A program made the position numbers and the translations under genes. Under the pieces are notes generated by a model that was not told where the DNA came from, ran no database searches, and saw only the letters and a program-made list of their open reading frames with translations. Below, one piece after another: positions 7,869 through 33,588 of a stretch of DNA of 64,000 nucleotides (the first letter of the stretch is position 1; the number at the start of each line of letters is the position of its first letter). Source of the DNA: Ceratodon purpureus (Eukaryota > Streptophyta > Bryopsida > Pseudoditrichales > Ditrichaceae); contig CM026425.1 of NCBI GenBank assembly GCA_014871385.1, forward strand, positions 1,481,008 through 1,545,007, written 5' to 3'.

Positions 7869-8410
7869 GGCCAGGGAGAATTGACCCTCACACTGGTACC
7901 TTACCGGATGAATGTCGTGGATGGTCTCTTCGGTATCTCATCCATCATGATCCAAGTAGGTAACCCATGGTTCGAACCCATGGTTAGAACCCATGGTTAC
8001 CTTGACATGTGGATGAATGGGGGCTTTTTGGCCTTATTGTGCACTCATCCTTATGAACCCACGTCCATTTAAAGGAATAATTGCAACTTCCAATGAAATG
8101 AGAGGACCCAAACATTTTTGTGCACATAAATTGGAGTGGATATCACTTGTGGGTTCAAAGGAGATTTGTAAGTCAAGCACCTTTGAAGTTTGGAATGGGG
8201 TATGTTTCCTTGTACCTTATACTTATTTGTTTTTTTTTTTTTTTTTTTTTTTTTTGATTGCATGCATTTAAAATATATGCACATTTGTATGGTTTATATT
8301 TAAGAGCATGTTTTTGTAACAATATAATAATTTTTTATTTCCTAGTTTTATAGGTGTTTTTGAGTAATTACACAAAGCAGAGATATAATTTTTTTGTAGA
8401 AATGCAATCA

Positions 8411-9610
8411 TGATGGGTATGGCTCAAAGAGTTGTGATGTATTCTAAAGTTTCTCTATGATGGGTATTTCCTCCATGAGGTTGTGATTTATCTCATATGT
8501 AGCCCATGATGGGTATTTCTTAGAGAACAAGATGCATTTCAAAATCTCTATGATGGGTATTTCGTAGAGATCGTGATACATTTTAAGATTGCTCTAGATG
8601 GGTAATACCAAGATGAGTGAACCCTAAAGATGGCGATGGATTTAAAATTATGTTCATGATGGGTATTCTCTAGGGACTTAGGAGGGATGTCCAAGTGTGC
8701 TTATTTTTATAATTGTTTCAAAATTTTGTGATATAACTCCATTGGGGTGCTGATGGGTATTGCCTCAATGTTCGAGTGTGCCATGAACCCATGAAAGGGC
8801 AACCAGAGATAAATCTTTTTCCTAAAAAACTTGGGTATGATGGGTATTGTTTGCGGGTATTTTTCCTACGTCGTGATATAATTCAGAAAGTCTTCATGAT
8901 GGATATTGTGAAGAGAGTTATGAGAGTTGTTTATATATGCTTGCTTTGAAGATAATTTCAACTTCCCGTGATAAATCTTATTCGGGCTTCATGATGGGTA
9001 TTGCTCAATTATAAAGGTGCATCTTTTTGTGCAGGCATGATTGTTCTTGTGTGCATATATTTTTATTTTTTTTCATTTTGCAAATTAATAATTTGTTAAC
9101 TTAGACTTATTTGATTATACTTTTGATATTAATTATTTCATGTGCTATGTATTATTTAAAAAGAAGTTCCATCATTCTCTTGTAAGAGCTTGGAAACATG
9201 AACTTTGCAATTTTCACCTTCACCAAAAAAAAAATTTACATGAACTTCATGAGAATACCCATCACGAAATAGTTTTAGGCACAATAATTATATCTCTGGT
9301 TTTTAAACTTCAAGGTCCTTAGCCTCGCAATACCCATCTCAATGAACCTTCAAATATATCATGAGGTTAGAGCAATATCCATCTCAAAGACACTTTCAAG
9401 TATTACATGACCCAAGTGCGATACCCATCACGAATCAAATTTCAATTATGACATGACTTGAATCTAATACCCATTACGAAATAGTTTTGAGCTCAATAAT
9501 TATATCTCTGGTTTTTAAGCCTTAAGACCCATACTCACCATAATACCCATCTCGAAGAACTTTGATATATCACAAAAGCTTAGGGGCAAAGGAAATACCC
9601 ATCACGAATC
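8411..9610. repeat. Fold-back array of GATGGGTATT units
   Basis: From about 8411 to 9000 the motif TGATGGGTATT recurs roughly every 45-95 bases (for example near 8411, 8458, 8507, 8551, 8657, 8751, 8838, 8991). From about 9254 to 9610 the reverse complement AATACCCATC recurs (near 9254, 9331, 9421, 9471, 9541, 9595). Between motifs a second degenerate phrase such as CGTGATACATTT is also shared. The two halves face each other as a diverged fold-back. The same motif family occurs in the sister element near 31890-32500. Confidence 0.75.
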
Positions 9611-9917
9611 AATTTTGAAGAAAATAGTTGAATCTCTAAAGTGCAAAACCTTGGCATCCTTGAACTTGGAAATACACATGTTTTGATGGTCTACAATGAA
9701 ATCACAAATCCATTTGCAAATCTATTTCTTAAAAATGATGGAAAAAATTTATGAAAGAAAGGTGTTTAAATTAATCCACAAAATTGACATTCCAAGTAAA
9801 TCAATGATATGCAAAAAATGATACTTTATATTCCACAATATTGTTCCAACCATCACAATGAGGTTGGAAACAAGTCAATCTAAAAGAAAGGCTACAAAAC
9901 CAAAAGCACTAATGTAA

Positions 9918-11097
9918 TTAGAAATCGTAAACATCCTCTCCATCTTCTCTTACTTCACTTCCTTCTCCTTGAACTCCATCATCTCTTCCATTAGGTCCAC
10001 TATTCTCTTCATGCTCTTCTTCATCATCATGATTGTCTCCATCTTCATCATCATCGGTTAGTGAAACTATCTCTTCATAAACATCTTCTTCTCCCTCATC
10101 TTCTCCACTTGCCTCTTCTTCACTATTTAAGATTTCATCACCTAGGCCATGTTTTGCACGATAGGAATCACATGCAACCTCCACACGCTCCATTCTTGAC
10201 ACATTCTCCATCTCATAAAACTTGGTCTTCAAAAACAAGTATCTTGCAATCCACTTATCCTCCCCCGTGATGAGACTATACACAAAAAAAATAAAATAAT
10301 ACTTAAGTATATGAAAATGTAAAACTCTTAACATAAACATAAACATTGACAATCTTTAGAAGAAAAGAAGAAATTTAAACTCACATGTTTTTCATACTCT
10401 TTGCACGGTGCCACTTCACAATTGAAGCCACCAAACCCTTCCTCTCCTTCTCATTCCTTTCCCACTTGGAATAATAAAAGAGTTCTTGAAAATCCTTGGT
10501 CACTTTCTTGTTGTTTTGAGGGTTTGATCTCACCAAATCTGCAAGGGCCTCCAAGTTGTGCAATTTCTCAATCTTGGAGAAATTTAGATTACCTTTGCCC
10601 AAAGACTCAACTCCAAGAAACTCTTCCAACTTCCCACCATTCTTGATGAGACTAAGAAGGAGTAGGCATTGCCCTGGAGGTGGCTCCTTCCTGGCTGTCT
10701 CCTCCAATTTCTTCCAAGACATTTGAGCCCTAATGCTCCAAGCCTCCTTCTTCTTCTCAAACTCCTTCTTCTCTCTCAAATAAGATGTGGTCATGATCTT
10801 CAAATTCGGATTCTTGGTAGTCTTTTTCTTCTTCTTGGTCTTCTCCTTCTCACTCTCATCTTCTTTAGGCCCGGGCTTCAATTTCTCTAACTCCAACTTA
10901 TGAGCTTTCTTCATGTGTTCATTGAAGTGGTACTTGTGTTTGAAAGGTCCATATGGACACTTCCGATTGTTAACACTTACAAGACACAAGTAGGGGTCAC
11001 TCTTACCTTTACCTTTGGACCAATGCTCTCCTTCAATTGCATCACCCATCTTTTCCACCACTTTAGGTATCTCATCCCCATTCCTATTCCTCTTCAC
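9918..11097 (-). CDS. Transposon-encoded zinc-finger-like protein with acidic tail
   Basis: Two exons on the minus strand: about 11097-10385 and 10275-9918. The donor CAT|GTGAGT and acceptor TATAG|TCTC close in phase, giving about 356 aa. The N-terminal part has CPYGPFKHKYHFNEHMKKAH, a Cys/His-rich segment like a C2H2 or BED-type finger. A Lys-rich stretch and a helical middle follow. The C-terminal 70 residues are strongly Asp/Glu-rich. The codon matching the expected ATG is ATT here (just upstream of a GTG at 11097). A diverged copy of the first exon about 220 bp upstream keeps the ATG. I do not recognise the family; it could be the element's own protein or a captured gene. Confidence 0.5.
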
Positions 11098-11440
11098 AAT
11101 GGCTACAAAAAATCACAATTAAAAATCATTTAGTTCCAAATAGCATTAGAATTTCTAGACTCAAACCTCCATAATTCTAAATCCAAAAGAATTACAGACA
11201 TTTTAAAAAACACTTAGCTTTACCTTTGGGCAAATGCTCTCCTTGAATTGCATGGTCCAAGTTGTCCACCACTCTAAGTGTCTCACCTCCATTCTTACTC
11301 CTCTTCCTCTTCACCATGGCTACAAAAAATCACTATTAAAATTCAATTAGTTCCAATTAACATTAGAACCCCTAAACTCAAAACTCTATAACTCTTAATC
11401 CAAAAGGATTGCAATCATTTAAAAAAAAACTCCAAGATTG
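11000..11440 (-). repeat. Tandem duplication of exon 1 region (~220 bp)
   Basis: Segment 11008-11220 and segment 11216-11440 are diverged direct copies. Each contains a basic KRKR/KRNR start, the phrase HAIQGEH or DAIEGEH, and a following TACAAAAAATCAC leader. The upstream copy (start at about 11317, minus strand) has ATGGTGAAG where the downstream copy has ATTGTGAAG. The upstream copy can donate at AAAG|GTAAAG but otherwise runs out of frame. Confidence 0.7.
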
Positions 11441-12152
11441 AATGTAATTGCAAATGAACATATAATTGGACATTTAGTACTTTGTAATACAAAATTAGAA
11501 GCCTACAATCAACATTCAACTAAACCTCATATATGTTACACTTTAAGAAGTTCATACAATGAGCAAAGTAGCTAAAACACTAAACCCTAATTCTCCAAAA
11601 AGAATACAAACTTACCAAATGTAAATACAATCCATACATTTCTTCAACACAATTCATACATACAAGAATTGAATGATTCTAAACCAAAGCACAATGAAAC
11701 ATCAAGACAAATGTAGAAAATAGCTTGCATCAACATACATTAGAAATCATTTGTTCCAAGGTTGAGGCTTCTATTTCTCCTACCTAATACTAATTCTAAC
11801 TCCTTTCTTTCTTCTAGAACCTACACTTCAATCTACAAAAAGATAACAAAGAATTCTCAATATAAAATAAAAAACATCCAACTTAAAATCCTATAATATA
11901 TCTAACTAAAACTTGTAATTTCAAGGTGAAAAACCACAAAAGCAACCAAAACTAGACACAAAGCAAGCAATAAGAAGGAATGAAGCAATCAAAAAATTAA
12001 ATTTAAAAAAAAACGGGACTGTACCTAAGGGCGGCTGCAGGTGACTTGCTGTAGGGCTGCGGTGACGACGAGGTGGCGAGGGCGAGGGCGACAGGCGGGC
12101 TGCGAAGGAGGCCTACGGGAGGCTGCGAGGGAGACCTGCACGAGAGCCTGAC

Positions 12153-12215
12153 AGGGTCGACAAGGGGGAGGGCAGGGTCGACGAGGGGGAGGGCGGGGTC
12201 GACGAGGGGGAGGGC
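12153..12215. repeat. Three 21-bp tandem repeats with GTCGAC core
   Basis: Units start at 12153, 12174 and 12195, each of the form RGGGTCGACRAGGGGGAGGGC. They sit in the GC-rich right part of the large family-A transposon (12020-12340), upstream of its minus-strand gene. A splice donor-like CTTAG|GTACAG lies at about 12025. The segment may be a non-coding first exon or promoter of the transposon gene. Confidence 0.8.
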
Positions 12216-12403
12216 GAGAGGCGGGAAGGCGGGAAGGGGGCGGGGGAGTGGGAGCGGGGGGGAACAGGGAGCGCTGGAGGGGAACTTCGGGGGGAACGGC
12301 GGGGGGGGAACGGCGCCTAACTGGAGTTAAGTGGAAGGGGAGGGGATGACGCCCCACACTCCGTCCCGCGAGGGTACCAGTGTGGGGGCTGATCCTCCCC
12401 AGG

Positions 12404-15400
12404 CCTCCGTTGCCTTCCCCAACTTCCTTGTTCTCGACTTTCCTTTGCACTCCAGGTTTACATGGATTGAAACATACATACATGATAATGTTTTCTCAAA
12501 ACTGTCCCATTTCGTCCTTATCAAATCACTCTCTACACCTTCTGTCCAAGTGATTTCAGTTTTCATTCAACTGTGTCTTCCTCCTCCTTTGTCCTTTTTT
12601 TCTCCATGTCTGCCTTCACAGCCCACTCACACTTGGAGCCCAATGAACACACACTCAACTAACAAAGGAAACGAGGAAGACATGATGTCATATAGTGTAA
12701 TACACTAAAACTCATCTATGGGGAGAGCCGATGGGCTGCTGAAGTCGCTCTGCGTTTTCTGGTGAGGGTGTATCTTGGGAAATAGTCGAGGACATGTGGA
12801 TCTTGGTAGACAAGTGCGCCTAACCCTGACTTTTGGCCCCTTTCTATCTAGGCCATTTGTGTAGTGTTTACCCAAACGACATCATTACACATCCTTATTG
12901 CATCAAACTGCAAAGAGCTATGAAAGTTCCTATTTGTTTACATTCTCAACTTCACACATCTTGTCCCTCTTTTCCTTTGCATAATGGTATATTTAGCACT
13001 CTGGCATAGCTTTATCAATTCAGATCTACGAACCTTTGGGACAAAACTATCAACGTGAGAGAGCAAGGCTTCAATCCCCGTACATCCACACGAGAAGAGG
13101 AGATCCAATATTTTTTAATCTTAGTTTTTTAGCACCAATCATCCGCACACAAGACATTGCGTGGGCATCAAGAGTGCAGACACCGGAGAAGATCAACACA
13201 CGCCGAAGTCAGAGAGGACGTCCAACATCAAGACACAACACTAACACCATAGGTTCTACACTATCATCCACTTCAATAATAGAAGAACAAGATCCAACAT
13301 GTGACGGACAACAACATCGACAAGTACAATCGTCAACATAGACCTTGATCAAACAATATAACCAGGATCCCTACATCAACACCATGTGACCTCACCTCAC
13401 AAAAAGTGCCTCATCCTGTCACCAGCACCGTAACATCCCTACAACTCTTCGATTGCACCCCCTGCAGTGTTCGGCAATCAACAAACAATAGCATCCCGAG
13501 TGTTTAGCAACACCATCATGGGAAATCCAACGACAAGTTGAAGGCAATAGACTGCTCTAGGCATAAAGTCTCCCACCTTCAGGTAAGTTTTTGCTCTTCC
13601 TTATTATGTCTCTGACAAAAAGTTTCGTAATCGCAAAACAAAACAAAAAACCCACAAATCAATAGTCGTTAATACTATAGGAATCCGTCCCCTTCTCAAA
13701 AAACTCACCTATATCCTTAAAAACACCTACTGCAAACATACACAAATATCCAAATTCAGCTCTACTACTAACAACAATAAAAAGTTGTGTAGTACCTTGT
13801 GTTCTCCAAATTGTCACAGAGAAGGAGACAAATGATGTGGTGCCTGCAAGATACAAGCTCGCAAGGACAAGTAGCAAAGATGTTGAAGTTTTATATTGCA
13901 GCTCCACGCCTCCGTGAAGCAATGCCCAAAGAAGTAATTGAAACCGAACTGGTGTGACAATTTGCATAGGACCAACAATCCACCCTTAAGCATTGCATTC
14001 TGAATAGCAGAACTAGGTCAGTCATCCTTACCTTCCTCTCCAAAAATCCATATTGCAATATTGCACATACAACACAACTCCCCCCTATAAAGATCTTCTA
14101 GTCATAGTCAAAATTCTTAGTTTCTACCTCTAGCCCTGGAGTTCCAGCAAATCTACTTGCATGCAAATTGCTATTTGTCAAATGTATACAGACTAACCTA
14201 AAGAAGCAATCATCACCAAAAGCAATCAACACTCCATAAATATTCTCCAGGTCTTATTGCTCCACCGAAAGTACTTCGTGGTTGCTTCTTCAAAGCCCTT
14301 TTAGTAGGCACCTAGCTCCAACACACCTTGTAGCACCCTCCCCTGTCACAACCAAGGCACATCCGAACTCCTCCACCAAGTCGCCGCCCCACCACACAAT
14401 AGTGGCCTACTCCGCTGCATGACACCTGAACATGGTCCGACATCTAGCAACCAAACAAGAGTTGTCTACGCCTCGACAAATAGACAAAGTCACCGCTTTT
14501 GCCGTTGATAAAGCCACTCAACTAGCATCAGTTCAATCACCTTCCCCAACGCCACTACCCAACAATGCAAGGAGATACTTTGAACTCCTAAGGTCCAACA
14601 CTGAAGTTGCAGCAGACATGCCTTCGAAGGCGGAGAAACAACCTCACCTCCCAGCTAGGTATAAGCGCCTTACATTGAACCTTGCAATAGAGCTAGAAGT
14701 TGGTGTTTGCCGCCATATCCACCGGCAATTGTGTAAACTCATAGACATTGATCAAAATCTCACCGTACAATTTATCAAATTCACATATTGCAACGACGGA
14801 TTCTCACTAGATACACTTGAAGCCAAAACTAACAAATACAAACCACTAATTGATAATATTGTTGCTAGCGTTGGAAAATTAATCCACTTATTAGCATCAC
14901 AGCGAACGCTTGAGCCGCCGCACACATCTCTTTAATGAAGCTATTTGATAACAATTTTAAAATACCAATATCAACTATTAAAAACAACTTCAAAAACATC
15001 AATACCATCGCCATACAAGATGCCATATTTATCCTCCTCCATAAAAGAAGACTATAAAATCCTCAACCTTTACCCCAAATACAAGATCCTCCCTAATTTC
15101 AACCAAAAAGTTTTAGTAACCAAAGCCACTTTATTGAATGGTAGCAACAAGTGTAAATGTCTCTTGTCACATTTCCTGCCTTCGAGTGCTCACTCATTAG
15201 TACCAAACCATTAAATTTTCCACATTTGCTCAAACGAGTCCAGCATGGTTCGAACCCGGATCAGTAACATGAGATAAACGCTCACTCCAACCAACAATGA
15301 GTTCATTGACTTGGCCATCAACTCCCAAGAAAAACTACTCTTATACTAAAACTCCAAGCATCTTACTTCACGATAACTTGGAACCGTAGTACTTACATTG

Positions 15401-17072
15401 GCATTGGATTACGGGTGGAACGAACAGAAACTTAATTCACGTTGGTCTTCTCCAGGGACAGAAGTTTCTTTTCTTCTTCGTGGAGTATACAATAGTGTAG
15501 AGTACAGTACAGTACACTGATACAGTAGGTCTACTAACAACATAGAGTAGACTGTAAGATACATCATTGGCTTACAGCCTTACACTGTATTAATGATTGT
15601 CACTCAACTGTCCGATCCCCGTCCGATCCCCCAGGCCCCAGGGACCTCCCGAGTCCCTCTCATCACCAGCCTCAGCCTCAGCCTCAGCCTCAGCCCTCAG
15701 CCCTCAGCCTGACTTCTTCTTCAGCCCCCACCCTGTCAGTGCTGTTCTCACTGCTCCCCCTCTGCACAGTGCACACTCTCTTCTAACTTATGCTTTCATT
15801 CAACTTCCGCACAGGAGATGCTTCTCCTTCAGACTTCTGTCACTGCTGCAACTTCTTCTTGTCCCACCAGTACAGGCAAGGTAGCCATCGCTCCCCTTCT
15901 TCTCCTTCTGTGAGGCAATTAACTTGTGTGCATAATGCACCTCACGGTGGCTCGTGCCTGACTTGCTTCCGTCCCCAACTTGATGAGTTAATGATCCTCT
16001 AACTCAGTGATGTGTCCCTTCCTTCTCGCTGCTGCTTGTCCCGACTCCCAATACTAGAAGTCTAACATATCTATATCCGACCTATAATTAGGCGCATGCC
16101 CACGTGGTCCGGATGGCCCTTCCCACTTGTCCGGCTGCACCCTCCTCCTACACTCACACAATAACTTAGCGAACACGGGCGAGAGTCTGTGTGCCAGGCG
16201 GTGATTTTTTATTCATTTATGACATAATTCATAAACTACATCAGCGCCAGGCAAAGATTCTTGCCCACTCGCTAACTTCGACGATCCAATTCAGGATTGC
16301 CTGCTTTTCTCCTCTCCAACTCACTCCTCAGGTTCCATTTACCAGACTTCCTGCATCGATGCGCGTCTCGAGCCCAGGCTTGTCAACATGTTCAGGCTTG
16401 CTAAGTGTTGGCATACGATCTTCACATCTTGGCACAGCACCATCCAGATTCGAAGCATTGTAATAACACATGACAAAACTGAAGTTGGTTATATAATTGA
16501 TAATACCCTGGCAAGGCACTGTGTTACATAGGTGGAAGCCGCGAGACGGCAGCCACAGTGGGGGCAGAGTTACACAAGCCGATTATCATCTTGATACATC
16601 CAACAAAGCGGGCTGCTTGCGCTGGAGGTTTTTACTCCTCTTTGCGGACGAAAACAAAATCTTACTGCTCAGATGCAGGCCCAAGCATGGGATCCGGAAT
16701 AAACATTTTCATTTCAAAGCAGACACCGATCATTCAAAGCAGAACAAGCAGGCTGGCTGCCGATACTGGAATAATACCAGCATCTCAAAAAGGCACGAGT
16801 AGGATCAGTTTTAAGTTCTAATGCAACTTATATGACGCACTACTTGTCATTCTTGTATATATTTTTTTAATAAACAGTACAACGAATTTACACTTCAAGG
16901 TTGTTGCACTAGAGGCTGGGACGTACAAAACATAACCCAAAAATATTGCTCTCGATCATCTGTTCTGTCTACTACAGTGAAACGGCAGTAGAACTTGGCA
17001 TTCAGCTAAATTCCTTCGTACTCGTATGCCTCATAATATAGAGTACTCAGAATGCACCAGTCCACGTGGTGT
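12404..17072. other. Intergenic stretch between transposon and P450 gene
   Basis: The pre-insertion promoter-side sequence resumes at 12414 and fades into AT/AC-rich DNA. One unsupported open frame is listed separately (14432-14935). At 15590-15900 there is a GC-rich patch with TCAGCC repeats (about 15665-15710) that resembles the repeat-rich 5' flanks of the window's real genes, but no gene could be attached to it. The part from about 16200 to 17072 probably includes the P450 3' UTR. Confidence 0.4.
14432..14935 (+). CDS. Hypothetical open frame, 167 aa
   Basis: An ATG-initiated frame of 167 codons ending in TAA. It encodes a mixed-charge protein without recognisable domain, signal or repeat. 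The surrounding plus strand (13000-15200) is A/C-rich, which lengthens open frames by depleting stop codons. No convincing splice partners were found. It may be a remnant of a mobile element or a chance frame. Confidence 0.2.
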   Translation: MVRHLATKQELSTPRQIDKVTAFAVDKATQLASVQSPSPTPLPNNARRYFELLRSNTEVAADMPSKAEKQPHLPARYKRLTLNLAIELEVGVCRHIHRQLCKLIDIDQNLTVQFIKFTYCNDGFSLDTLEAKTNKYKPLIDNIVASVGKLIHLLASQRTLEPPHTSL

Positions 17073-20000
17073 TTAGGGCCTTGCAACTTGTGGACAAATT
17101 CCATTCACGGCCTCTGACATTCGTGTGCTGGCTAAGTTTGTTTCTCTATTGCTGACCTCATCGGGATGGTCATCGCTACCAGTTCGCCGTCTCGACACAT
17201 CCATCAGTAATCCGGCAGCAGTGTGGATCGTAGCTCCTGTTGTCATTTCCACCTGCACACTCATGATAACTATAGCTGAGTACGCAAGCCCATTCCGAGG
17301 CACAAAGCATATGGGAGCCACAGAAACATCCGAGAAGAATGATTAAATCAATGAAAACAAACCGTGTAACTCACAGGGGGTGCTCCAGGAGCGAGTGAAA
17401 AATCAAATCGTCGCACAAGCATGGCTAGTGCTGTTATCACCTGAGTCACAAAAGGATAAACAGAAAAATTAACGAGATATATGAGAAACCACCTGACACA
17501 TCTTACCCAAACTGTCCATTACAGCATCCTGTAATTTACTTAATTTCTAATGTGCCTGTTACACCAAACTCATTCCATTCCGTAGGAATACACTCTTCCT
17601 CCACTGTACCTCAAATGTGGCAAACATATCCCCCAAGCATTTCCGTTGACCTCCACCGAAGGGCAAATATCTATTCAATACCACATTCATGAGTCAATGA
17701 TCTCCAAAGAGTACACGTAATGTACAAATAAATACCTCCATATACAACTCTGTATCATTTCGCTTAAGGAACACTCCAAAAATCTCTCTACCTGTAATTT
17801 TGGTTCACTTCTGTAGGATCTGGACCATCTAATGGCCATCGTTCGGGTACGAAGGATTCTGGGCTTTCCCACAGTTTTGGAGATCGATGAATGTTCCATG
17901 TTGAAATAAAAATGTCTTCCCCCCTACCAGGTCAGTGCAAGCAAAGAAATTAGCCTCATACAAGTAAATATATGTCTGCAGATGCAAAATTGATTACAAA
18001 AAGCGGATCACTCGTTGAATAGTAAGTTAGTTAGCTTACTTGTCAATACGATATTTCCCCAGCGTATCACTTTCCAAAGATCGACGAATTAAAACTGGCG
18101 GTTGAGGATAAAGCCGCAGTGACTGCCACAACCGTTAGTTAGTGACATCAGGGAGATTACATGCGAAAGCAACGAGTGAATACTTTCAATCTTGATTACC
18201 GACTCCAATTCTTGTTTGCAGGAAAACTTACAGTTATTTAACTCGAAATTCTTAAATCATGGCATGTATACGATTGGTTAGGCAAATGACTCACCTCATT
18301 GATAACCCTCGTCGTGTATCTTAACTTTTTCATGTCTTCGACAGTAGGATGTCGGTCTCCCAGGACTCTATCCACCTGTTACATAAAAGTTCAGCCATTA
18401 CAATGTGCCTGTGCGAGAACAGCGAACATGTTGAGCGCACATATTACATTCTACGACCTGCAGCCTGCGTACTACATATTGAAAATACTTATTTCCCTAT
18501 CCGATCATTGATGCTAGAAAGTCTACAAAAAGTCGCCCAACCCTTTAGTGCATATGTAGACCTCTAGATTGTATTATTCAGCTATCAAAAAATAGACACA
18601 CCGTTAGGGTACACCATTAGCTAAAGTTTGTCACAGATGATTGTAACTCACCTCCTCTTGAAGTTTAGTCATCACGCCAGGATTCTGCAGAGTTCAAGAA
18701 CATGATGACAGGATTAGATAAAATTGTGAGGCTCTAAAACTGTTACGAAACGTCAAACTCGAACATGCAACCTGGAATCCAAGTCTTATCATGGAAAAAC
18801 ATCTCCCTCTCTAGCGGCGGTACACTTGTGCAGGACAAACCTGGGCTAGTAGGTAGAATGTCCAAGTCAGCACAGCAGCAGAAGTCTCATGACCAGCAAT
18901 TAACATGGTCATTAAGTCATCTCGTAGTTGCTTACTAGATACCTGATGCCACAACCCACACGATTGAGAACGCAGCCTGCCTATTACTTCGTCACTATGT
19001 CCACTTAATACAAGCAGAAACACATTGAACAATACATTGACGATGAACGGTCAATGAACGTACATGACTGTCATTTCTATGAAGTCTCAGACTGCCCAGG
19101 GCAGTACCGTTCAAATCATCTGACAGAAAAATTAATCTTGAAACAACACAGCATACAGCATAAAGCTAAGATATGATTCAACTGACAGCCAATGCTTTAC
19201 CAGGAATACGAACCGTGAAAATTATGGCAAACTGTAGTTATCAGACAGAAATGCTGTGAGTTGAACGATCGAAATGAAGATGGCATATACCTCTTCGCCA
19301 GCAGCAAGCAAGAAATGAAGAATACTGGGATCCCGATCATTCATATACTCATCTTCAAATTGAACGTCCTCCTCCTCCACCATCCTCTGCGTGTACAGTA
19401 CCAGTTGTCATGACTTTGACACACACTTCGATACGTCTTCCATAGAAAGTGAGAAACGTGACGGAAGTGGTCTCAGACATATACCATGTTGTTGATGAAA
19501 GATGAAGAAAATCAAAAAATAAAGAAAAACTCGTTAAGCATATGATCATAATGTCGAGGTTGCAACTGCCCATAATGTAAGACCAATTTACAGTGTAATG
19601 ATTGCAAACCTTGCATATAGCAATCAAATTATCCAGAATCTCATTTATCAAATTTAAAGCCTTGGTTACTCGACGTTGTCGTGGTACAATAGCTCTCAAA
19701 ATTGGTATCTTCCAATATGGAAGAATGGCAGTGCTCCTTTCCTCTGCTTCTCTTAATGTTATGTAGACAGCCTGTTCAACAAACGTGACAATATTAGCTA
19801 AATAACGACCGAAACAATCGAGTAATAGTGACAGCCACAAAACAGACCAACTTGAGGATTTCATCACATCGTCTAAAATTTATTTTTATTTTTATTTTAT
19901 TTGTAAAAAAAAAAAAAAAGCACTAATCATACGCCTGAAGAAGCTATAACAAATATAAGGGTAAATTGAATTTGTCACCCAGGTAGGAAATAAAAAGAAC

Positions 20001-22740: not shown

Positions 22741-22837
22741 GAAAATTGGAAACAAAACTAAAAAGAGAACCTGACAAAACTAAATTCTACAAACCACAAA
22801 ATGCCAAAAAAGCTGGTACTACATTTACTTTTGACTA

Positions 22838-22907: not shown

Positions 22908-22941
22908 GATCTTCAATCTTCAAACTTCAATGCGTCTTCTA

Positions 22942-25900
22942 TCACTGCGAAGAATTGAGAGGTAAACGAGGCGTTTTGACATCATCCTGGAAAAAAACAC
23001 AACAACAATTAGATTTATTATCCTGAAAACTCCAAGTCATACAGTAAAAACAAATTGAACAGTAAGAACAAACACTAAAACATGAAAATACCTTAAATTT
23101 GCTGAGCAACGAAGTAACGACATTCAAATCGACAATTCCACTGAAACTGAAAAAATTGCATCCATTGGCAGAGCCGAACATGAAACCACCTCCAGAAGCA
23201 CTTCCCTGGTTAAGAAAACACTGGAATAACAAAAAACTTAGTGAACATTCCAACAATACATTCTCAAAATGCAATAAGTGAAATCTGTAATCTCACTAAC
23301 TGAAATCTCAAACTGGAATAACTTGAAAACTCATAATAGATCTCACTAACCTCTTCATTCACGACATTCTGATTCCTGGAACGAAACGGAGTCTCTGATG
23401 TTGCCCCAACACTTGCGAAAGAAATTCTCTTCTCCAGATCTAATGTGGCCCCAACACTTGAGACAGATTTACCAACACTTGCGAAAGAAACTGACTTCTC
23501 CAAATCTTTGATCTACAAAAACCAATCATAAAAAACAGGCCATTAAAAACAAAAAACAATCAATACAGTAGAAAATAAAACAATAAAACTCAAATGAAAC
23601 AACAAAATAAAAATACCTTCACAATCTCCGCCTTCTTCAATTCCTCTGAGAGAACTTCAGAATACTTCATGGTATCCCCAGAAATGATGCGCTCGCAAGT
23701 CTCCATCTGAATCTTCTCGGAATTGGCATTGTAGTGATTGTAACTCTTTACATCCTTGTGTCCTGTGACCATCATTCCTTTGTCCGCTGGAATCTCTGCT
23801 TGTGCCATTCGGGAGATGCCCATTCGTCTTGGCGTTTTATTGGTGAACTTTCTATTCCCAATAACTATCCCTGGAATCAGATATAAGAAAATAAAAAATT
23901 ATTCTGGAATTAAACATAAAAAAATCAAAACTAACTAAAACCAACAATAAATATTGGAACAACATCAAATGAATAAACTAATGACAAACATAAAAACAGT
24001 TAAAGGGAACAAACCTGGAGTAGCCTCAATAAGGTTACGAACAGCTTTACCCAGCGTATTCTTCCCAACCGCTCGTTTTTGAAACCAGACAAAATCTTTT
24101 TCTTTGAAATTCCCCTTCGGTGTCAAGAACACCGGATGAGGGTTTCCATCATACCTCTCCTTGAGCTCTTTCCGAGAGAATGTTGGCTATCTCGCTGCCA
24201 TACGCTTGTAGCTATCCACCACATTAGGGTCGGAGCAGTCAACACTCTTTCGAAGAGAGTGCTTGGAACAATGATTTACATCCATCTTGTATATCTTCGA
24301 TAGACTAGGATTGTACCTGGACAGTCCGTATAAAAACTATCACTATGTAGATAAAACTACCACTAAGTAGAAACTGCTACTTCTAAATTTAAAATCTACA
24401 AACCATGACGTACAAACTAAACTAAAAGATTTACCGGCACTATTACATTATATTTTATTTAATTCTAATTACACTAAATTGTTGAAACTAATTCACCACT
24501 CAACGCGGTCAAAACAGAATCTCCAACCTGAATAAAACAAAACCAAAACACTTCATTAATACAATTGAAATAGAATAAGCAGAAACAGAAAATCACCTCA
24601 AGAATTCGATGCCGTTGTCAGTAAGAACTTCAAACTGACCAGAATGAGTCGCACGCAACTCATCCTGGCCACGAATGAAGAAGTTACGGCAAAAAAAAAT
24701 AGACTGATCTTAAGATCAGACCATTAGGGGTTAGTACGGATGAAGCAGGACTCTGTAAAATCAAAACTTCCTCAGCTCGAGTAAGAAGATCGAAAGTATT
24801 TGTTGTCAGCCCCAATCTACGTTTAAAAGATCGCCTCACAGTTTCATTTCCTGCAAATACTACCCTACGGTACCTAGGATCGAACATTATATTAAATGGA
24901 GGTTCTACGGTATTAGTCCTCTGCAAACGCTTTTCCTGCTGGAGACGGATTATGCGACCAATTGAACGGATCATGTTTTGAAGCCTGCCAAAACCGAAAC
25001 CGAAAACAGAGTTAGAGAAAAAAACTAAAATCGTAAACGAAATTAAATCATACGTTACAACTGATCTATACAACTGTAATATAAAACTAAATTATAAATC
25101 AAAGTTCACTAACTACTGAACTCAGTTGTAAAACTGAACAAATCAAACAAAATTACAAATAAAGATAAGACACTTACGATCCAGGTGGATATAAGCTTCC
25201 ATCTTTCTTCGCAACCTGTAACACGAAATCAACGAGCAGTTCTACGAAGTCGCGAATATCCTTCTCCTCCGACAACTCCTCAATCGTCTTCGCAGTCGAA
25301 TGACCTCGACACTTTCTCCACTCATCAAAAGCATTGGCAGCCCATGTCTCAGAGTGCGCACTCCTTCTCTCGCCACCGACAGCTACATTCCTCAATTCCT
25401 TGGCATCCAAATCCCGGAATCTTCTATTACCATTTGAACCTGCCATTCAGAAAAACAGGTACTAAGTTATTTTAAAATATACGGAACCGATAAGCAATTC
25501 CAAATATACAAAAACTAGAATAACACACAAAACGAGATTTCAAAATGTTTTTGGACATGCAACTAACAATCAAAATTTAAGAAACTAAAACATTTAGAAC
25601 ATTACCTTGGCCATTTTCCTCGGGACCATTAGACTGTTCCTTGACTGGATCGTCCTCATCCTCCGGAAAGTTCCCGCTCTAAGGAATGAACGCCTCATCA
25701 GGTCCATCATCTTCATCCTCATTGTAAAACTCTGCTCCAGGTTCTTCTTCTTCGACTTCTGCTCCAGGATCCTCTTCTTCTACTTCATCCTTCACAGATT
25801 CTAGCAAAGGAACAGGAGATACTGCAAAACAATTATTAATCGAGTTAGTTTTACGGTAAAGATACTAGATAGAACAGATAGAAAATAGAAAATAAAAAAA

Positions 25901-27958
25901 CTCAACTAAAATATACCTCCATAAAATCTACAGACACTAGGATCATGAATATGATCATAACATAATTTTCTCCGAATTTCTGCTTCTGTCCAACTTCTAA
26001 CGTATACAACACCGCTACTTGTAAAAACCAGGGCTAATATTAAATATTAAAGTTCGAATGAAATCTGCACTCAAAAACAGTAAGAAAATACCTGCATCTA
26101 CGTAGAAATATGGTAATAAAATACCTGCGTCTACGTAGCCTACTTCATTCTCAGCGAATTGTCCCGGCCCATCAAGACCAGGAACAAGAGCATTATCACC
26201 AACAGTACCTACGAGAGCATAAAAAATCAACTAAGCAAATCAAAAAACAACAAGGCAAGCAGGAATAAAAACACAAGGAAAACAATAAAATGAAATCAAA
26301 ACTTTAAATACCAGATGATGCTCGCGGTAAAATTAAGCCATCATCCTCAGTAACAGAATGAGGACCTACAAAACAACACAAATAAGAAACACTAATGAAT
26401 CACCACTACAAAAAAAAGCATCACATACATAAAAAAAAACAAATCAAAATCATCAATCAAAAAATAAAACATAAAAGTTGAACTCAAAACTTACAAGGAA
26501 GAGTACTATCTCCAAGCACTTCAATCTCAGCAATCTCGTCCCCGACAACATCTGCTGAACCTACAAAACAGAAATACACAAAAATAAGAAATACGCAAAA
26601 ATGCGCTACCGCGCGGCTTCGGCCGGGCATGGCCACTACATAACGATTAACTCAATTAAAAAAACTACCAAACAAAAAAACAGTAATCTACACAACCAGA
26701 AAGAACATATCGCTCCTCACATAAACAGATATGAAAATAAGCATAAAGTTCAAAAGCAATCAAAGAAATCAAACATAAAAATCAACAAATAAAAATTGCT
26801 TGGAACAATTCGATCACCAAGAATCTCAATCTCAGCAATCTCGTCCCCGACAACATAGGCTAAATCCACAAAAACAAAGAGAAATAAATTAGAAATTCGC
26901 AAAAAATGCGCTGCCGCGCAGCTTCGGCGGCCTTCGGCCGGGCATGGCCACTACGTAGACGATTAACTCAAAAATATTAACTAAAAAACTATCCAATCAA
27001 CTCATACTACATTAAAACGAGAATCTAAATCTTAACAGAACTAAAAAATCAAATAAAAAAAGCTAAACAAAAATACTTACTTTGAACGGTTGCATCACCA
27101 AGTAAAGCAATATCTGTAATTTCATCCTCGGCAACATCTGGTGAATCTACAAAACACAGAAAAATAAATTAGAAATAGGCAAATATTGTGGTCAGTAAGA
27201 TATGATCATTTTCCCATCAATCAATTTCAAAATAACAGAAATATACAAAGAATTAATTAATTACTAGATTGTATTTAATTTTAAGATGAAAACATACCTG
27301 CGTCAACGTTATCGTTGACATCTTCCAAACCTTCGTTGGGTAATTTTTCTTTTTCTTCATTTTTAACCTTAAGAATTTTAAAACTTATTTTTAGAACATA
27401 AGTTTATCTCTAAAATTCAACTAATACAACTAATCGTAAGTTTCAGAGTTGAATTCAATATGACTCAAATTACAAAACAAAACAAACAAAAACAAATGAA
27501 GATTATGAATAAGAAACCTGTGTCTGGGAGATGTAGTGATCTAAGCATTGATTGCAGATGTTAATATCCTCGCTGTCATCGCATACTTCAATCTGCTGCA
27601 GAAGTTTGTCAGATATGCCGATGCCTCCCTTTGCGACGCTCCCCTCACCGAAAGAGACGACTTCCACGTCCTTTAACTTCGTCAACTCTGAAACCAGGAA
27701 TAGAAAACGATTTGAAGCATTAGGAATAAATTACAAAACATTGCAAAATAACTGAGATTACAAAAAACATTATCAATAAAACAATGAAACTTACCTTGCG
27801 AAGAATCAGCTTCGCTCTTCAGATCAGGAACGTCGCAAATAAGTCGGTGCCGAAGGTTTAACAACGGAAGAACCAGAATCTTTGGGAAGATGTTGCAGGT
27901 CACAATCTTCCATCTCTGAGAAGGATTGTTTCTTTCCAGTCAAAGAAAGTGACTCCAT
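22942..27958 (-). pseudogene. Crypton-like (DUF3504) tyrosine recombinase gene, decayed
   Basis: Exons (minus): start exon 27958-~27795, 27687-27518, 27367-27298, 27146-27081, 26560-26495, 26365-26312, 26208-26125, 25800-25616, 25439-25178, 24984-24597, 24316-24015, 23870-23617, 23512-23351, 23205-23092, 22986-22942 (TGA). The core reads KKDGSLYPPGSLQNMIRSI, then RNFFIRGQDELRATHSGQF, then FQKRAVGKNTLGKAVRNLIE. The catalytic end has TPRRMGISRMAQAEIPADKG, VTGHKDVKSYNHY. This fits the R...GHxxxxxxxY tyrosine-recombinase C-terminus of Cryptons and DUF3504 proteins, which cut and join DNA through the Tyr. The N-terminal half is acidic and built from small exons. Lesions: TAG at 25679-25681 and 24187-24189, a frameshift at the A9/T9 tract 24691-24699, and a stop/frameshift near 27824. 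The catalytic exon itself is open. Confidence 0.75.
26495..27146 (-). repeat. Array of 66-bp acidic mini-exons
   Basis: Three copies of a 22-codon exon in the recombinase gene: 27146-27081, about 26862-26805, and 26560-26495. Each encodes a variant of D-V-x-x-D-E-I-x-(E/D)-I-x-x-L-G-D. The second and third also share about 250 bp of intron, including the phrase CTTCGGCCGGGCATGGCCACTAC near 26615-26640 and 26925-26953. The middle copy has lost its GT donor (CAAGCA in place of a GTAAGT-like site). Confidence 0.75.
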
Positions 27959-28860
27959 CTACAAACACAAAATCAAAGGTTATTAAGATGAGAAAGTATG
28001 AACGAAACTGAACAAACAAAAAACTGAAAACTAAAACAAAACATAAACATAACATAACATAAACAACATAACAAAAACAAACATAACAAATTAACAAAGA
28101 TTCACTACCAACCTTACCAAATAACTCCTAAAATTCCTCGAACTCCTCCACAGATCACACACTGCCACACAAAACACACAGTTAAAAACAGAAACAACAA
28201 AAAATTATCGAACAAAAAATTAAAAACAGAAAGGAAAGCACGAAAACTACTGCTAACCACAAAACATAAAATCTAACAAAGACTACATCTAACAAGGACT
28301 ACATCTAACAAAGATTACATCTAACAAAGACTACATCTAACCAGACTATTATGCTAACCACAAAATCAAACACAATTAAAAAGAACTACATCTAAATCAG
28401 GTTAGAAACAGAAACACATCTAAGCGAATACAAGAAAGAATAACAAGAAAACTATACTCTAAACACGTTAAGTCCTACCCGCAGACACCCCCGCAGACTC
28501 CTCTCACAGGCACTTGTGCGGAACTAATCGCGAAAGTAAATTACTGCACAATACACAAACACAGCAACACATTAGAAACAAGAACAACATACACTAATAC
28601 AAAAAACAAACATAAACAACAAAACATATGTAACAATATCAAAGAAATGCACCATATCAAAGAAACACTTACGCCGATCGTTGAAAACGATATGCAGCAG
28701 GCTTGAAATCCATCCGCGCGTACTCAAACCCTAGGAAGATATTACTTCGCAGAACAAACTTGCAGCCGCCGCCACTCACACAAACTCAAAACCCTAACCT
28801 AAAACCCTAGACAAGCTACTAAACTTCACAGACACAGAAAACTATCCGAAGCGGAAGCAG
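27959..28860 (-). other. 5' leader and upstream region of the recombinase gene
   Basis: The recombinase start codon at 27958 follows directly on an acceptor-like TTTGTAG, implying a spliced 5' leader. The stretch is A/C-rich on the plus strand, with a repeated ACATCTAACAAAGACT phrase near 28270-28345. No coding frame can be supported. Confidence 0.4.
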
Positions 28861-29035
28861 AGACAAACTTAGAGCGAAACAATCGAAACAGACACAAAAC
28901 CTAATCGAAACAGAAGCAGACACAAACTCAGAACGAAACACTCGAAACAGACACAAAACCTAATCGAAACAGAAGCAGACACAAACTCAGAACGAAACAC
29001 TCGAAACAGACACAAAACCTCTCCAAAGCAGACAC
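28861..29035. repeat. 59-bp minisatellite, about three copies
   Basis: Units begin near 28861, 28918 and 28977. The second and third are nearly identical and the first is two bases shorter. Each includes the phrases GAACGAAACACTCGAAACAG and ACACAAAACC. It lies about 0.9 kb upstream of the recombinase start codon and may be part of its promoter or the transposon's terminal region. Confidence 0.85.
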
Positions 29036-29263
29036 AAACTGAGCGATAGCAAAGACAACGCACAGAGTAGATAGAAACGAGCGCATAGAGAAAAACAAGC
29101 AAAGCAAAACACACGCAAAGCAAATCGCACACAAGAAACAAACGAAAACTCGCAAAAAAAGACTCCACACACACGCGGCACCGCACGGAGCGGGCGAGAG
29201 CGCAAGCGCGAGAGCGAAAAAGATAGCGGACTTGGCGCCACTGTAGATTATATATTCCTGCTC

Positions 29264-29309
29264 GGACGGTCTAGATCTACCCGCTCACCGTAGGAGATCT
29301 CGACCGTCC
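29264..29309. repeat. 15-bp hairpin with 16-nt loop
   Basis: GGACGGTCTAGATCT (29264-29278) faces AGATCTCGACCGTCC (29295-29309), with 14 of 15 paired. The location is just beyond the GC-rich GCGAGAGCG run that ends the 59-bp repeat zone. Confidence 0.75.
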
Positions 29310-29689
29310 AATTTGGACGAAGGACTCAATCTCGTTGGATGAATTTTCACTGACGCAGGATGCAAATCGTTGATATGTCACCCTTGCCACGTGTTCACGT
29401 AAGATTGGAGGAAAGTTGAAGCGCATTAAACCCATAATGATTGTAATTACTCCTCATGTCCCTTATAAATGTGTTTTGCGAACTCCAGTAAGGAAAAATT
29501 AAATTGTGACGACGAGGTTGCGTGGTCGATACCTGCCGTATACTGGGCTGATATCCATGTCATCGTGGCCGATATCCGGTACATATACCGATAACCGGGT
29601 TAATGACACCCGGCAGCTGAGACCTTGCTGTCGGGCCCATACCCGGCTCATGCGCAGCAGTTGTAAGGGATCAGGTTTTTGAATCTTGG

Positions 29690-30080
29690 GCAGCTATGAC
29701 CTGGTGTGGGCAGGCTTTGGAGGTGCTCGGCAGGCTCCAGGCAAGGATGGGCAGACTCATGAGGCGCCGGGCAGGCTCCAGGCAGGCTTGGGCAGACTCA
29801 TGAGGCGCTGGGCAGGCCCCAGGCAGGCTTGGGCAAGCGTCGGAGGTGCCGGGCAGGCTTGGGCAGTCTCGTGAGGCGCCGGGCAGGCCCCGTGCAGGCT
29901 TGGGCAGGCTTGCGAGATGCCGGGCAGGCGTGGGAGGCGCTGGGCAGGCCTCGGGCAGACAATTGTGGACCAGGCAAGCGTTAGACTCTTCGGGCAATGT
30001 CGGGCAGGACTCTGGGCAGCCTTGTGTCTGCGGGCAGCCCTGGGCAGGGTCGTGGAAATACGGGCAGCTCTGGGGTAAGG
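29690..30080. repeat. GGGCAG-rich minisatellite
   Basis: The phrases GGGCAGGCTCCAGGCAGGC, GGGCAGACTCATGAGGCGC and GGGCAGG recur about twenty times in variable order. Long open frames on both strands across this stretch result from the repeat, not from a gene. Confidence 0.8.
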
Positions 30081-30249
30081 TCAAAGGAACCTGGACTCTG
30101 GATGGGAATGTGGTGACCATATGCTGGGAGCGTGGGCTGGAACAGTAGCTCGGAATGGGAACTTGAGCTGGGAAAGGCATGCTAGAATTGGGAACGTGGA
30201 TGGGAAGTTAGGGAACTATTTTGGGAAAAATCCCAACGGGTGTTACGCC

Positions 30250-30378
30250 GGGTGAGTCACCGCCCGGCGGGGCTCACGCGCCGTGAGGCTCCCCTACCGC
30301 TCAGGTCGGGCTAACGCCCTACCCCTACGCGTCGGGGTGCCTCCTGTCGCGTGAGCCCCTCCGGGCGGTGGCTCACCC
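30250..30378. repeat. GC-rich multi-step cruciform
   Basis: Three nested inverted pairs: 30250-30267 with 30361-30378 (17 of 18), 30269-30280 with 30348-30359 (12 of 12), and 30285-30294 with 30334-30343 (9 of 10). The loop holds a further GGGC/GCCC pair. Together they form a roughly 40-bp interrupted stem in a 129-bp segment that is far more GC-rich than its surroundings. Confidence 0.85.
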
Positions 30379-30542
30379 TGTACATAACTACTATGTTACA
30401 ACTCAACTCACAACCCCACTCACGCTCGCCCAAGTTATCCAAATCAATTCACTTTTCTCTCTCTCTCTCATCACTTTGGATTACCCTACTGCTCTTTCTG
30501 TATGTACACTATCTCCCCAAATCTCACTGTGCACAGGGTTTG

Positions 30543-30952
30543 CATTAATTAATTAATGCAGGGGTGGGGAGGGGGGCGTGGCACATCTAGGACGGTCAGG
30601 GGGCTCTTAGGGGGATCTTAGGGGGGTCTTAGGGGGGGCTCGGGGGGGTTTTGAGGGGATCTTGGGGGGGTCTTGGGGGGTTTGGAGGGGTCTTGGTGGA
30701 AGTCTTGGTGGGGGTCTCGGAAGGGTCTTGGAGGGGGGTCTTTGAGAGGTCCTGAGGGGGGCTCTTGGGGATCTTGGAGGGGCGGATTTATCCCACAAGG
30801 TTTGTACCTCCTCACCTCTTCTCAAAGTACAAGAAGGTTTGGGTGGGTGGGAAAAAAATTAGAAATATCCCAATTTGCCATGTGGCATCCCCTCAAGGGA
30901 GTCCATGTGGCAAAAGTGTCCCACAGTGACATTTCTCCATTAATTAATTAAT
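30543..30952. repeat. 15-bp AT direct repeats bracketing a G-rich array
   Basis: CATTAATTAATTAAT occurs at 30543-30557 and again at 30938-30952. Between them lies a G-rich array (30590-30785) in which GGGGG(G)TCTT-like units repeat about every 10-20 bases on the plus strand. The direct repeats could be a target duplication or two copies of a simple AT palindrome. No inverted ends are visible just inside them. Confidence 0.5.
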
Positions 30953-32521
30953 ACACAAATCTTACTGTGAAACACTATCAGAGATAATGTCACTTGTCAC
31001 TATGTCACCCCGTTCTCTCCTCCGGGCCACAGCTACGCAGAATCAACCCGACATGCCATACCTTCCTGGATGGATGTCTTCGATGTTCATGTCACCCTCC
31101 TACCCTCCCTGACAAATGTCTTGGATGGTTGTGTCAATTGTCATCCGTCAAAAATCCAACTAAGTAATTCATGGCTCCAATCCATGGTTAGCTTGACATA
31201 TTATGTGTTGGCTCAAACAATGGAAGCTTTTTAGACTTATTATGCAATCATCATTATGGATAGTTTCTCAAAGGAAAAGTCTATTTACTCCACTTTCAAT
31301 GACATAATATTTTATAAATAAGATTTTGAAAGAATGCTACACGGCATTCTTAAGATGACAACTCCTCTTATTCTATGATAAAAAAACCAAGTGGTGTGGA
31401 TTTAATGAATGAAATCTTTAGTTAACATGATTCTAATTTTAAATGGAAAGAATTAATTTTTCTTCACTTCTTTAACTGTCAACTAATGTCAAAGTAGACT
31501 CCTCCATTTAAAATAGCAATTGCAACGTGAACTTGTCATCGAATCAAATGAGAGGACCAACATTTGTACGTGTACAAAAAAAATAGATTAGATTGTCATT
31601 TGTTGATTAAAAGGAGATTTCAAACATTATTGAAGCTTTAAATGAAGAACGTTTCAAAACCTTCAACTCAAAAGTTCTGATATATGTTTTTATTGCAAAC
31701 ATTCAAAATATATACACATTTGAATGATTTTTTATTTGAAAGGCATATTGTTGTAACAATTTTTTTAATATTTTTTTTCTTATTGTATGTATATGATACA
31801 ATAATCACAATGAGCAAAGATATAATTATCTCTTTAGAAATTCAATCACAACATATATGGTTTAAAGAGTTGTAATACATTTTAAAATATCTCTATGATG
31901 GATATTTTTCTACATGGCTGTGATTTATCTCATATGAAGTCTATGATGTGTATTTCTTAGAAGTCGTAATACACCTCAAAACTTGTCTAAAGTGGGTATT
32001 TTTTTGAAGTTGTGATGCATTTCAAACTATCCATCATGGGTATTACTTATGCAATTATGAGGTATGTCCAAGCATGCTTGTCATCATGATTTTTCCAAAG
32101 ATTTATAATAAGTCTCATTTTTGGCCTATAATAGGTGTTGCATCATTCTTAAATATCAATCTTACATTGTGTTTCTAAAAGTTGTTGTGTATGTGCTCCT
32201 TATCATTCTTCTTTTCTTTTTAGATTCCTCTTGTCATGATGGAGTTATTAGAAAACCCATAATGTACAATTAATGATAAAGCTTTCTACTAAAAAGCGTG
32301 GCGGTAATAGTATTACCAAAAGAATTGTCATTTATTTCAAAGTTTATCCATAATGGATATTTCATAGAGGTCGTGATACAACTCATAATGTCTTCAAGAT
32401 AGATATTGTATAGAGAATTATGATACATGCCTAAGTATTTTTGTCGTAAGGATTTTTCCAAATCCTTGTCATACATCTCATTTAGGCCTTATGATGGATA
32501 TTCTTCATTTAAGAAACCACA

Positions 32522-32615
32522 ATAAGGAAAAGGAGAAGGAAAAAAAAATCACATCTAAACAAACGAGGAAAAGGTGAAGGAAAAAAAAAATCACATCCAA
32601 ACAAGTCATTAGACA
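32522..32615. repeat. Tandem duplication of an A-rich 55-60 bp unit
   Basis: The unit AGGAAAAGG(A/T)GAAGGAAAAAAAAA followed by TCACATC(T/C)AAACAA occurs twice in direct orientation inside the shorter family-A element. Confidence 0.7.
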
Positions 32616-33260
32616 GAAAAACCACCACTCATCAAAACTCCAACATTAATTTTATCTTTCTCTTTATCAAAATCCACAAGATCACAAATGAAAGCAAACA
32701 CTATAAAGGCTCAATACACAATACTCACTCAAAACAAGAAGGTGAATTTTGAACCAAATTCAACTATAAACTTAGATAATTTTTTTGTAAGATTCCTATT
32801 AAATATGCCAATCAATATTGAGGAAGTGTTACATTTAATGCCTCTTTTTGAAAACACACGCCCTCCTACTTGCAAACAAAATATCAAATTGCTACAAGAA
32901 TGTAATGCCATCCTCAAATTCTTTACATTCAAAGACAAATTTCAAAGCTTAGCTTCGCACCTTCTCCAAAATTTGTATATATACAACCAAAAATAGAACC
33001 AAACTCCAAAATTTGTATATATACAAACACTCACTTAGAATATAGCAAAACCAAACCACTACAATCTAGATTTACAAACTTCGATATGAAATGAGCACCA
33101 TCTTCACTCAAAGGCAAACTTCACGGAACTCAAAAGCCTAAAAAACACAACTTTCTTCATTGGGCAAGATCTCTCAAATTCTAAATATACATGGAGAACC
33201 TACAGAGCCTAGAGTCCAAATTCTTGCCACCTCGACCACATCAACTTTGAAGGCAATTAA

Positions 33261-33336
33261 GCTCAGGTTTGAATTGGAAGCTCATATTTGAATTGGAAGC
33301 TCATATTTGAATTGGAAGCTCATATTTGAATTGGAA
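33261..33336. repeat. Four 19-bp tandem repeats
   Basis: GCTCATATTTGAATTGGAA repeats at 33261 (variant with AGG), 33280, 33299 and 33318, in the right part of the shorter family-A element. Confidence 0.9.
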
Positions 33337-33588
33337 GCATGAAAAACATCTTCGGCGAGCTCAAGTCGGGATTGGCAGCAGCTCGGAGGGAAGGTGTTGA
33401 CAAGCAAGAAGATAGACACAACGACAATGGAGAAAGGCGGGGAATCATAGAGGAGGTGGGAAATCCTAGCGAAAGGTAATCAAGTGCTAACCAAAGTTAA
33501 AAAGGTTGGAAGCAAGGTTGAGAGTAGTTGGATGATGCCCCCCTACTCCATGAAGAATGGTGTGGATGTGGGATTGATCCTCTCTAAG

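Follow-up and report, generated by a model that had tools for sequence, protein, structure and literature searches.

Transposon-encoded anti-silencing with matching motifs has been described for the VANDAL elements of Arabidopsis (PMC5735166, PMC10398659, PMC13317346), which belong to the Mutator-like elements (MULEs), a class whose target site duplications (TSDs) span 8–11 bp (PMC6446971). VANC proteins bind short motifs arrayed in tandem in noncoding VANDAL DNA and remove silencing marks, the motif being specific to each family, as in YAGTATTAY for VANC21, and diverging together with the protein (PMC5735166, PMC10398659). VANC6 motifs have also been reported in the unrelated element AT9TSD1, for which the accessible text mentions no VANC gene (PMC5735166). 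MuDR is described as combining a MULE transposase with an unrelated second gene, the two read from opposite ends, as having deletion derivatives reduced to the second gene, and as encoding in mudrB a novel protein needed for integration (PMC8224964). Here we analyse a 64,000-nucleotide window of the moss Ceratodon purpureus (G000:C5:1481008-1545007, from a 362.5-Mb assembly of 151 contigs) that contains two related transposons, copy A and copy B. Copy A and its relatives elsewhere in the genome, together called family A, carry a gene of their own, gene 2, and arrays of a short motif.

The layout of family A resembles that of MuDR in its two genes and in the occurrence of copies reduced to the second one; unlike MuDR, it has inverted repeats of about 32 bp instead of about 200 bp, its gene 2 is predicted to encode a multi-exon zinc-finger-like and acidic protein, and its motif arrays lie in noncoding DNA. 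With VANDAL21 and VANDAL6 it shares the combination of a MULE, an extra gene and a family-specific arrayed noncoding motif, and also the joint divergence of motif and protein. In contrast to the VANC system, the moss gene and motif are also found in a Helitron family.

The elements themselves reduce to a non-autonomous MULE of a known kind; what is noteworthy is the module of gene and motif resident in family A, and the fact that a Helitron has it too. We consider it an evenly balanced call that gene 2 would encode a VANC-like, motif-directed anti-silencing or self-activating protein of both MULE and Helitron.

The second gene and its arrayed motif

Five full-length copies of 7.5–7.7 kb (L025, L033, L037, L039, L040) carry the transposase on the plus strand, read from the left end, and gene 2 on the minus strand, read from the right end, in convergent arrangement. 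The Pfam scan of the transposase was run on L025, with which the other four were compared. Its first transposase frame contains the MULE transposase domain PF10551 (E 1.9e-10, 41.5 bits at a cut-off of 27.6), and its second a SWIM match, PF04434, under the cut-off of 19.6 (E 0.04, 13.9 bits), with CSC...CKH visible. Family A also has a 9-bp duplication, which falls within the 8–11 bp of MULEs, and terminal inverted repeats, a variable feature of this class. Copies A and B are Mutator-like DNA transposons of a known class and represent no new superfamily. The ratio of nonsynonymous to synonymous substitution rates (dN/dS) of the transposase ranges from 0.22 to 0.93 in 15 pairs, the top value coming from a nearly identical pair.

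The preliminary description of this DNA had noted a spliced gene in copy A, and the predicted exons of gene 2, on the minus strand, do join into one frame. The predicted protein has a zinc-finger-like stretch of Cys and His, a stretch rich in Lys and an acidic C-terminal part, with 40 Asp or Glu among the last 100 residues. Exon 1 arose as a tandem duplicate of the beginning of exon 2. The frame of exon 2 stays open in copy A, L021, L022, L024, L025 and L033, and is interrupted by internal stops or frame breaks in L023, L037, L039 and L040.

Gene 2 had been suspected to be captured. When the family-A transposase was compared with the genome, 84 of 1391 first-look candidates were scored, so that the distant MULEs are a sample; the first 89 of 121 matches were used, leaving aside the last 32 (weak second pieces), and collapsed to 74 loci. 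A gene-2 match lies within 12 kb of 17 of the 22 loci whose best piece is at least 55% identical, which we call the own clade. It lies near none of the two loci at 43–54% and near one of the 50 below 43%, where about 0.4% per locus would be expected by chance. A captured passenger is therefore not supported: gene 2 belongs to this MULE clade as its resident second gene, and a Helitron family possesses it too. That the dN/dS of exon 2 stays below 1 between copies is in keeping with this.

The noncoding DNA of family A is occupied by arrays of GATGGGTATT. At up to one mismatch, GATGGGTATTNC occurs 17 times in the window (15 in copy A, two in copy B) against 1.05 expected, and exact sites were found in all 17 family-A copies examined, 6–17 in each. 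Plus-oriented exact sites occupy about 580–1190 of the five full-length copies, ahead of the transposase, and minus-oriented ones about 4170–4760, between the genes. All exact motifs are more than 570 bp from the left end, and the right 2.7 kb contains none (motif-free right stretch of 2.79–2.90 kb in five of five). The same signal emerges from an 8-mer count in which no motif was named beforehand and words with four equal letters in a row were excluded: the top MULE words are GATGGGTA, ATGGGTAT and TGGGTATT. When the left parts of 17 copies were aligned, the columns of the nine L025 motifs had a diversity of 0.037 against 0.093 in the rest of the region, a value as low in two of 644 circular shifts and somewhat biased by the definition of the motif on L025 itself.

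A Helitron family with the same gene and motif

Open-frame homologues of gene 2 lie at C4:180786 and C6:97988655. Identities in a comparison of gene 2 are 97, 95, 39 and 39%, the two 39% values belonging to these homologues. The C4 unit encodes a Helitron Rep/helicase protein (PF14214, E 1.5e-22 in L043), whose helicase part goes on in L044 as judged by eye, an OTU domain (PF02338) at its cut-off, and an endonuclease-like tail, again by eye. At C6 the gene-2 homologue is followed by the same OTU start. Both copies are 98.7% identical up to C4:200382, the end of the compared stretch, which makes the unit longer than 20 kb. The arrangement recalls Helentron-type Helitrons, in which an OTU domain and a C-terminal endonuclease also occur. 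Rep/helicase, OTU and endonuclease-like tail are shared by the family represented by L041 and L042, which differs from them in carrying the gene-2/motif module.

Helitrons are marked by a 5' TC, a 3' hairpin with CTRR, and insertion at AT. The 5' boundary of the moss family is common to 16 places including C4 itself; of the other 15, 12 start at query bases 122–126 and three at 113, 117 and 128, and the boundary is not clearly a TC at an A/T site. Gene 2 follows it after 0.5–1.1 kb at C4:179745, C6:97987585, C6:33794648, C1:22810465 and C7:14019135 and after 9.4 kb at C6:78048318, while among the matches listed none lies that near at the other ten places.

The motif accompanies the gene, with GAGGGGTATT as the array word of the Helitron where the MULE has GATGGGTATT. 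In the noncoding repeats of the Helitron, GAGGGGTATTGC occurs 20 times in L041 and eight times in L042, in both orientations, and a second array lies about 12 kb further on; the tandem units measure about 50 and 231 bp. The k-mer count gives GGGTATTG and GGTATTGC as the top Helitron words, and these two alone are common to the ten most frequent MULE and the 25 most frequent Helitron 8-mers. Genome-wide, paired shared cores number 124 against four for a reversed control, with 73 GAT-GAT and 28 GAG-GAG pairs against none of either kind in the controls. Among the core-pair places listed, C2:21543845, C3:8981053 and C3:8985896 fit neither family by eye. The 28 GAG pairs, which represent GAGGGG arrays, form nine clusters. 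Gene 2 lies nearby in five (C4:186k/198k, C6:33.8M at about 21 kb, C6:78.06M, C6:97.99M, C7:14.016M), two have a Helitron 5' end only (C5:9.13M, C6:96.82M) and two have neither (C1:4.93M, C3:17.29M).

Gene-2 matches across the genome split into a MULE type and a Helitron type. At C10:10767853-10770111 a gene-2 fragment of the Helitron type (33%) adjoins a distant MULE transposase (38%), and another MULE lineage may thus possess the module. Broken gene-2 fragments also form tandem arrays, of the MULE type at G000:C11:14075758-14136784 (period about 1.15 kb, at least 24 matched units) and of the Helitron type at G000:C2:24117003-24143616 (964 bp, at least 28 matched units). These arrays are transposon-derived satellites.

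Anti-silencing and other possible roles

How could such a module work? A full-length family-A element of about 7.6 kb, with short inverted ends and a 9-bp duplication, would express transposase and gene 2 from convergent genes. The product of gene 2 would act in the nucleus and bind the arrayed GA(T/G)GGGTATT motifs of the element's noncoding DNA. The bound protein would then shield the element, and above all the transposase promoter, from silencing in the manner of VANC, or would switch the element on. The Helitron family would possess the same gene-plus-motif module, its motif changed along with the protein. DNA binding, recognition of this word and the anti-silencing outcome are what we infer, and the anatomy of the element fits the VANC model wherever sequence can put it to the test. 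The transposition reactions of MULE and Helitron are unrelated, and a gene and DNA word shared by both are therefore unlikely to serve the reaction itself.

Several observations weigh against this interpretation, besides the bias of the diversity comparison. For the two main open frames of gene 2, Pfam gave no match at E 0.1, a PDB sequence search with gene 2 returned nothing convincing (best E 0.24), and the predicted structure of exon 2 was uninformative, with a mean predicted local distance difference test score of 39. Among 45 within-family pairs, L021/L022 are identical over exon 2 and the other 44 have a dN/dS of 0.09–0.56; this estimate and that for the transposase are confounded by shared ancestry and by gene conversion, copy A being a mosaic. 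Five of the 22 own-clade transposase loci have no gene-2 match, and L030 as well as six short copies carry motifs without gene 2, as any non-autonomous copy may. Four of the nine GAGGGG clusters have no gene 2 nearby, and a fifth has it only at about 21 kb. In copy B neither transposase nor gene 2 nor an exact motif was found, and the 3' end of the Helitron lies beyond the stretch compared, which ends at C4:200382.

The protein TNPA of En/Spm binds subterminal repeats and brings the ends of the element together. Gene 2 might act as a transposition helper of this kind, or like MURB of MuDR in integration; this is the main rival to anti-silencing, and one that we hold to be rather unlikely. En/Spm is comparable in pairing an element-encoded DNA-binding protein with subterminal repeats, where binding by gene 2 would be the presumed equivalent, but it belongs to the CACTA superfamily with a 3-bp duplication, and the repeats of family A lie on one side and in the middle only. 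A helper would agree with the short-word arrays in the left subterminal region, with the convergent two-gene layout known from MuDR, and with reports that mudrB is required for integration and that mudrB-only deletion derivatives exist (PMC8224964). Yet the gene and motif recur in a Helitron, which transposes by another reaction. Taken together, this sharing with a rolling-circle element, the lack of any exact motif in the right-hand 2.7 kb of all five full-length copies and their distance of more than 570 bp from the left end argue against a cofactor that binds the ends.

Another role, also improbable in our estimate, is that of a plain transcriptional activator, which would act through the motif array to drive its element but leave silencing in place. 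The plus-oriented array directly upstream of the transposase frame and the acidic C-terminus of the predicted protein are what one would expect from it; the second array, between the 3' ends of both genes, fits a region-wide action on chromatin better.

The tie between motif and gene 2 could even be accidental, with the motif read by a host protein or kept by repeat slippage. Tandem repeats such as the Helitron units can homogenise without selection, and some GAGGGG clusters stand apart from gene 2, as counted above. We nevertheless regard an accident as quite improbable: the flanks between motifs have diverged in the MULE and the motif has not, and the motif variants track the divergence of gene 2 in two unrelated types of element.

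Copy A by itself, without a transposase and with a spliced non-transposase gene, looks like a Pack-MULE with a host gene as passenger, a very remote prospect given that gene 2 resides in five transposase-bearing copies and at most loci of the clade. No parent host gene stood out in the whole-genome searches with gene 2, which left the context of most weaker matches, such as C2:14512084, C4:16375234 and C7:5923405, unread.

If the VANC-like interpretation is true, the same logic would hold in a moss and in two unrelated transposon types, beyond the VANDAL MULEs of Arabidopsis, and counter-defence genes would pass between transposons much as anti-defence genes do between phages. One of the titles in this field reportedly extends VANC-type anti-silencing to eudicots. 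Somewhat short of an even chance, and offered tentatively, is the further proposal that a portable selfish module of gene and target word was passed between MULE and Helitron in the moss, the word being re-tuned with the protein. Such a module would be a counter-silencing kit independent of the transposon that carries it, analogous to VANC and perhaps of separate origin. In the literature on Ceratodon transposons, bryophyte anti-silencing and accessory genes of Helitrons and MULEs, covered incompletely, we found no published record of a gene-plus-motif module. Within this one genome, a single protein family is found together with two variants of the motif and a large number of copies that carry it as a target.

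Ends and history of the two copies

An undescribed superfamily with a 10-bp duplication, as first proposed, has become a practically negligible explanation: a perfect 10-bp reading is found in copy A and L039, but 12 of 15 copies show 9-bp duplications, and the family has a MULE transposase. The preliminary description had itself named a known transposase in full copies as speaking against novelty, and the full-length relative L025 carries one (PF10551). Its pointer to Mutator-like biology proved right, as did that to a non-autonomous line in the case of copy A.

Copies A and B share homology, with 69.6% identity over 510 bp in the best block, and, as described before, are related elements with direct repeats at their edges and termini of equal length. 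The right edges, previously set at 12403 and 33588, move to 12404 and 33589, which puts all four termini in register, with 7 nt ahead of a GAGAAT-like word. At 9 bp the flanks read CTCCGTTGC/CTCCGTTGC in copy A (9/9) and CCGGGCCAC/CCGGGTCAC in copy B (8/9). The tenth "repeat" base of copy A is the element's own terminal C together with a chance C in the flank; in copy B that position is one of its two mismatching bases. Inverted repeats are weak in copy B (53%). CACTA, the superfamily of En/Spm, was rejected by eye: the CACACTGG word sits about 20 nt inside the edges, which 9-bp repeats flank.

A genome search with the element ends, the check proposed at the outset, upheld the left edge and removed the 10-bp duplication. 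Of 111 left-end and 80 right-end candidates, 40 each were scored, which makes the copy number of family A a lower bound. All 40 right-end matches reach the final query base, window position 12404, and 38 of the 40 left-end matches start at query base 1, that is, at 7869. For 20 of the 40 left-end places the following DNA was taken out to 10 kb. TSDs rest on 15 copies with both ends found, from 19 left ends examined with at most 9.9 kb of following DNA (L027, L028, L029 and L031 have no right end within reach, and L040 was left out by the left-end filter). Twelve of the 15 have a perfect 9-bp duplication, and in only six of these is the next base outward on the left a C; L021 has 8/9, L037 7/9, and L039 alone reads a perfect 10 bp, so that the longer duplication is wrong for 14 of 15. 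L030 has two right ends, the nearer giving no duplication and the farther 9/9. In the window the terminal word has 10 matches against 9.94 expected; the window alone could therefore not have revealed the true boundaries.

Of the 40 scored left ends, 18 lie on C6 (110.5 Mb, 30% of the assembly and presumed sex chromosome), a slight excess. The U and V chromosomes of C. purpureus are each described as larger than 100 Mb and about 30% of a 360-Mb genome (PMC8000587).

Copy A lost its transposase by internal deletion and kept gene 2; it must therefore be moved in trans. What is left of the transposase is codons 2–24 of the stop-to-stop frame, which probably lie ahead of the true start. The deletion breakpoint is identical in copy A, L021, L022 and L024, at four places with different target duplications, from which it follows that this gene-2-only subfamily has transposed. 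Six shorter copies of 2.67–2.96 kb keep the left motif array and neither gene, with a short transposase stub in L035 only, and L030 (7.5 kb) has a transposase stub and no gene 2 that could be found. Over element positions 0–2400, where alignable, copy A is nearest to L021, L022 or L024 (94–98%); further right it is 98% like L025 (2400–2700), 98–99% like L033 (2700–3600) and 99% like L025 and L040 (3600–3900). This patchwork indicates gene conversion or recombination between copies. The idea that selection kept gene 2 after the deletion in copy A was rejected, the gene-2 region being a mosaic nearer to the full-length L033, L025 and L040.

The best left-end relative of copy B, at C5:10910875 (76% over 146 bp), adjoins a broken transposase 43–54% identical to that of L025, which assigns copy B to a sister lineage.

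Table 1. Positions of features of copies A and B within the window
Feature	Position	Strand	Basis or remark
Copy A, MULE with internal deletion	7869..12404	+	ends, 9-bp TSD, full-length relatives
Left TSD of copy A, CTCCGTTGC	7860..7868	.	flank comparison
Right TSD of copy A, CTCCGTTGC	12405..12413	.	flank comparison
Left terminal inverted repeat of copy A, 32 bp	7869..7900	+	75% identity with its right counterpart
Right terminal inverted repeat of copy A	12373..12404	-	terminus alignment
Array of GATGGGTATT motifs	8412..9004	+	upstream of the transposase frame in full-length copies
Internal-deletion junction (transposase removed)	9157..9158	.	breakpoint common to L021, L022, L024
Second GATGGGTATT array	9252..9603	-	in full-length copies, between the facing 3' ends of both genes
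Gene 2, predicted exons 11317-11224, 11102-10385, 10275-9918	9918..11317	-	splice prediction, 389 aa
217-bp tandem duplication (80%), origin of exon 1	11002..11431	-	also in full-length copies
G+C-rich stretch, presumed gene-2 promoter or 5' leader	12025..12370	-	between gene 2 and right end; presumed function
Copy B, old element of a sister MULE lineage	31031..33589	+	homology, ends; neither gene found
Left TSD of copy B, CCGGGCCAC	31022..31030	.	flank comparison
Right TSD of copy B, CCGGGTCAC, 8/9	33590..33598	.	flank comparison

Elsewhere in the window, pieces resembling another MULE-type gene lie on the minus strand at 57031-59694, with a weak SWIM match below its cut-off (E 0.012); they are not among the listed genome matches to the family-A transposase. 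An ordinary host gene begins on the plus strand at 37187-37768, right of copy B; this stretch is the start of a translational GTPase gene (GTP_EFTU, E 3.6e-20). Tandem repeats of 90, 180 and 189 bp, with open frames running across them, occupy 62555-63465.

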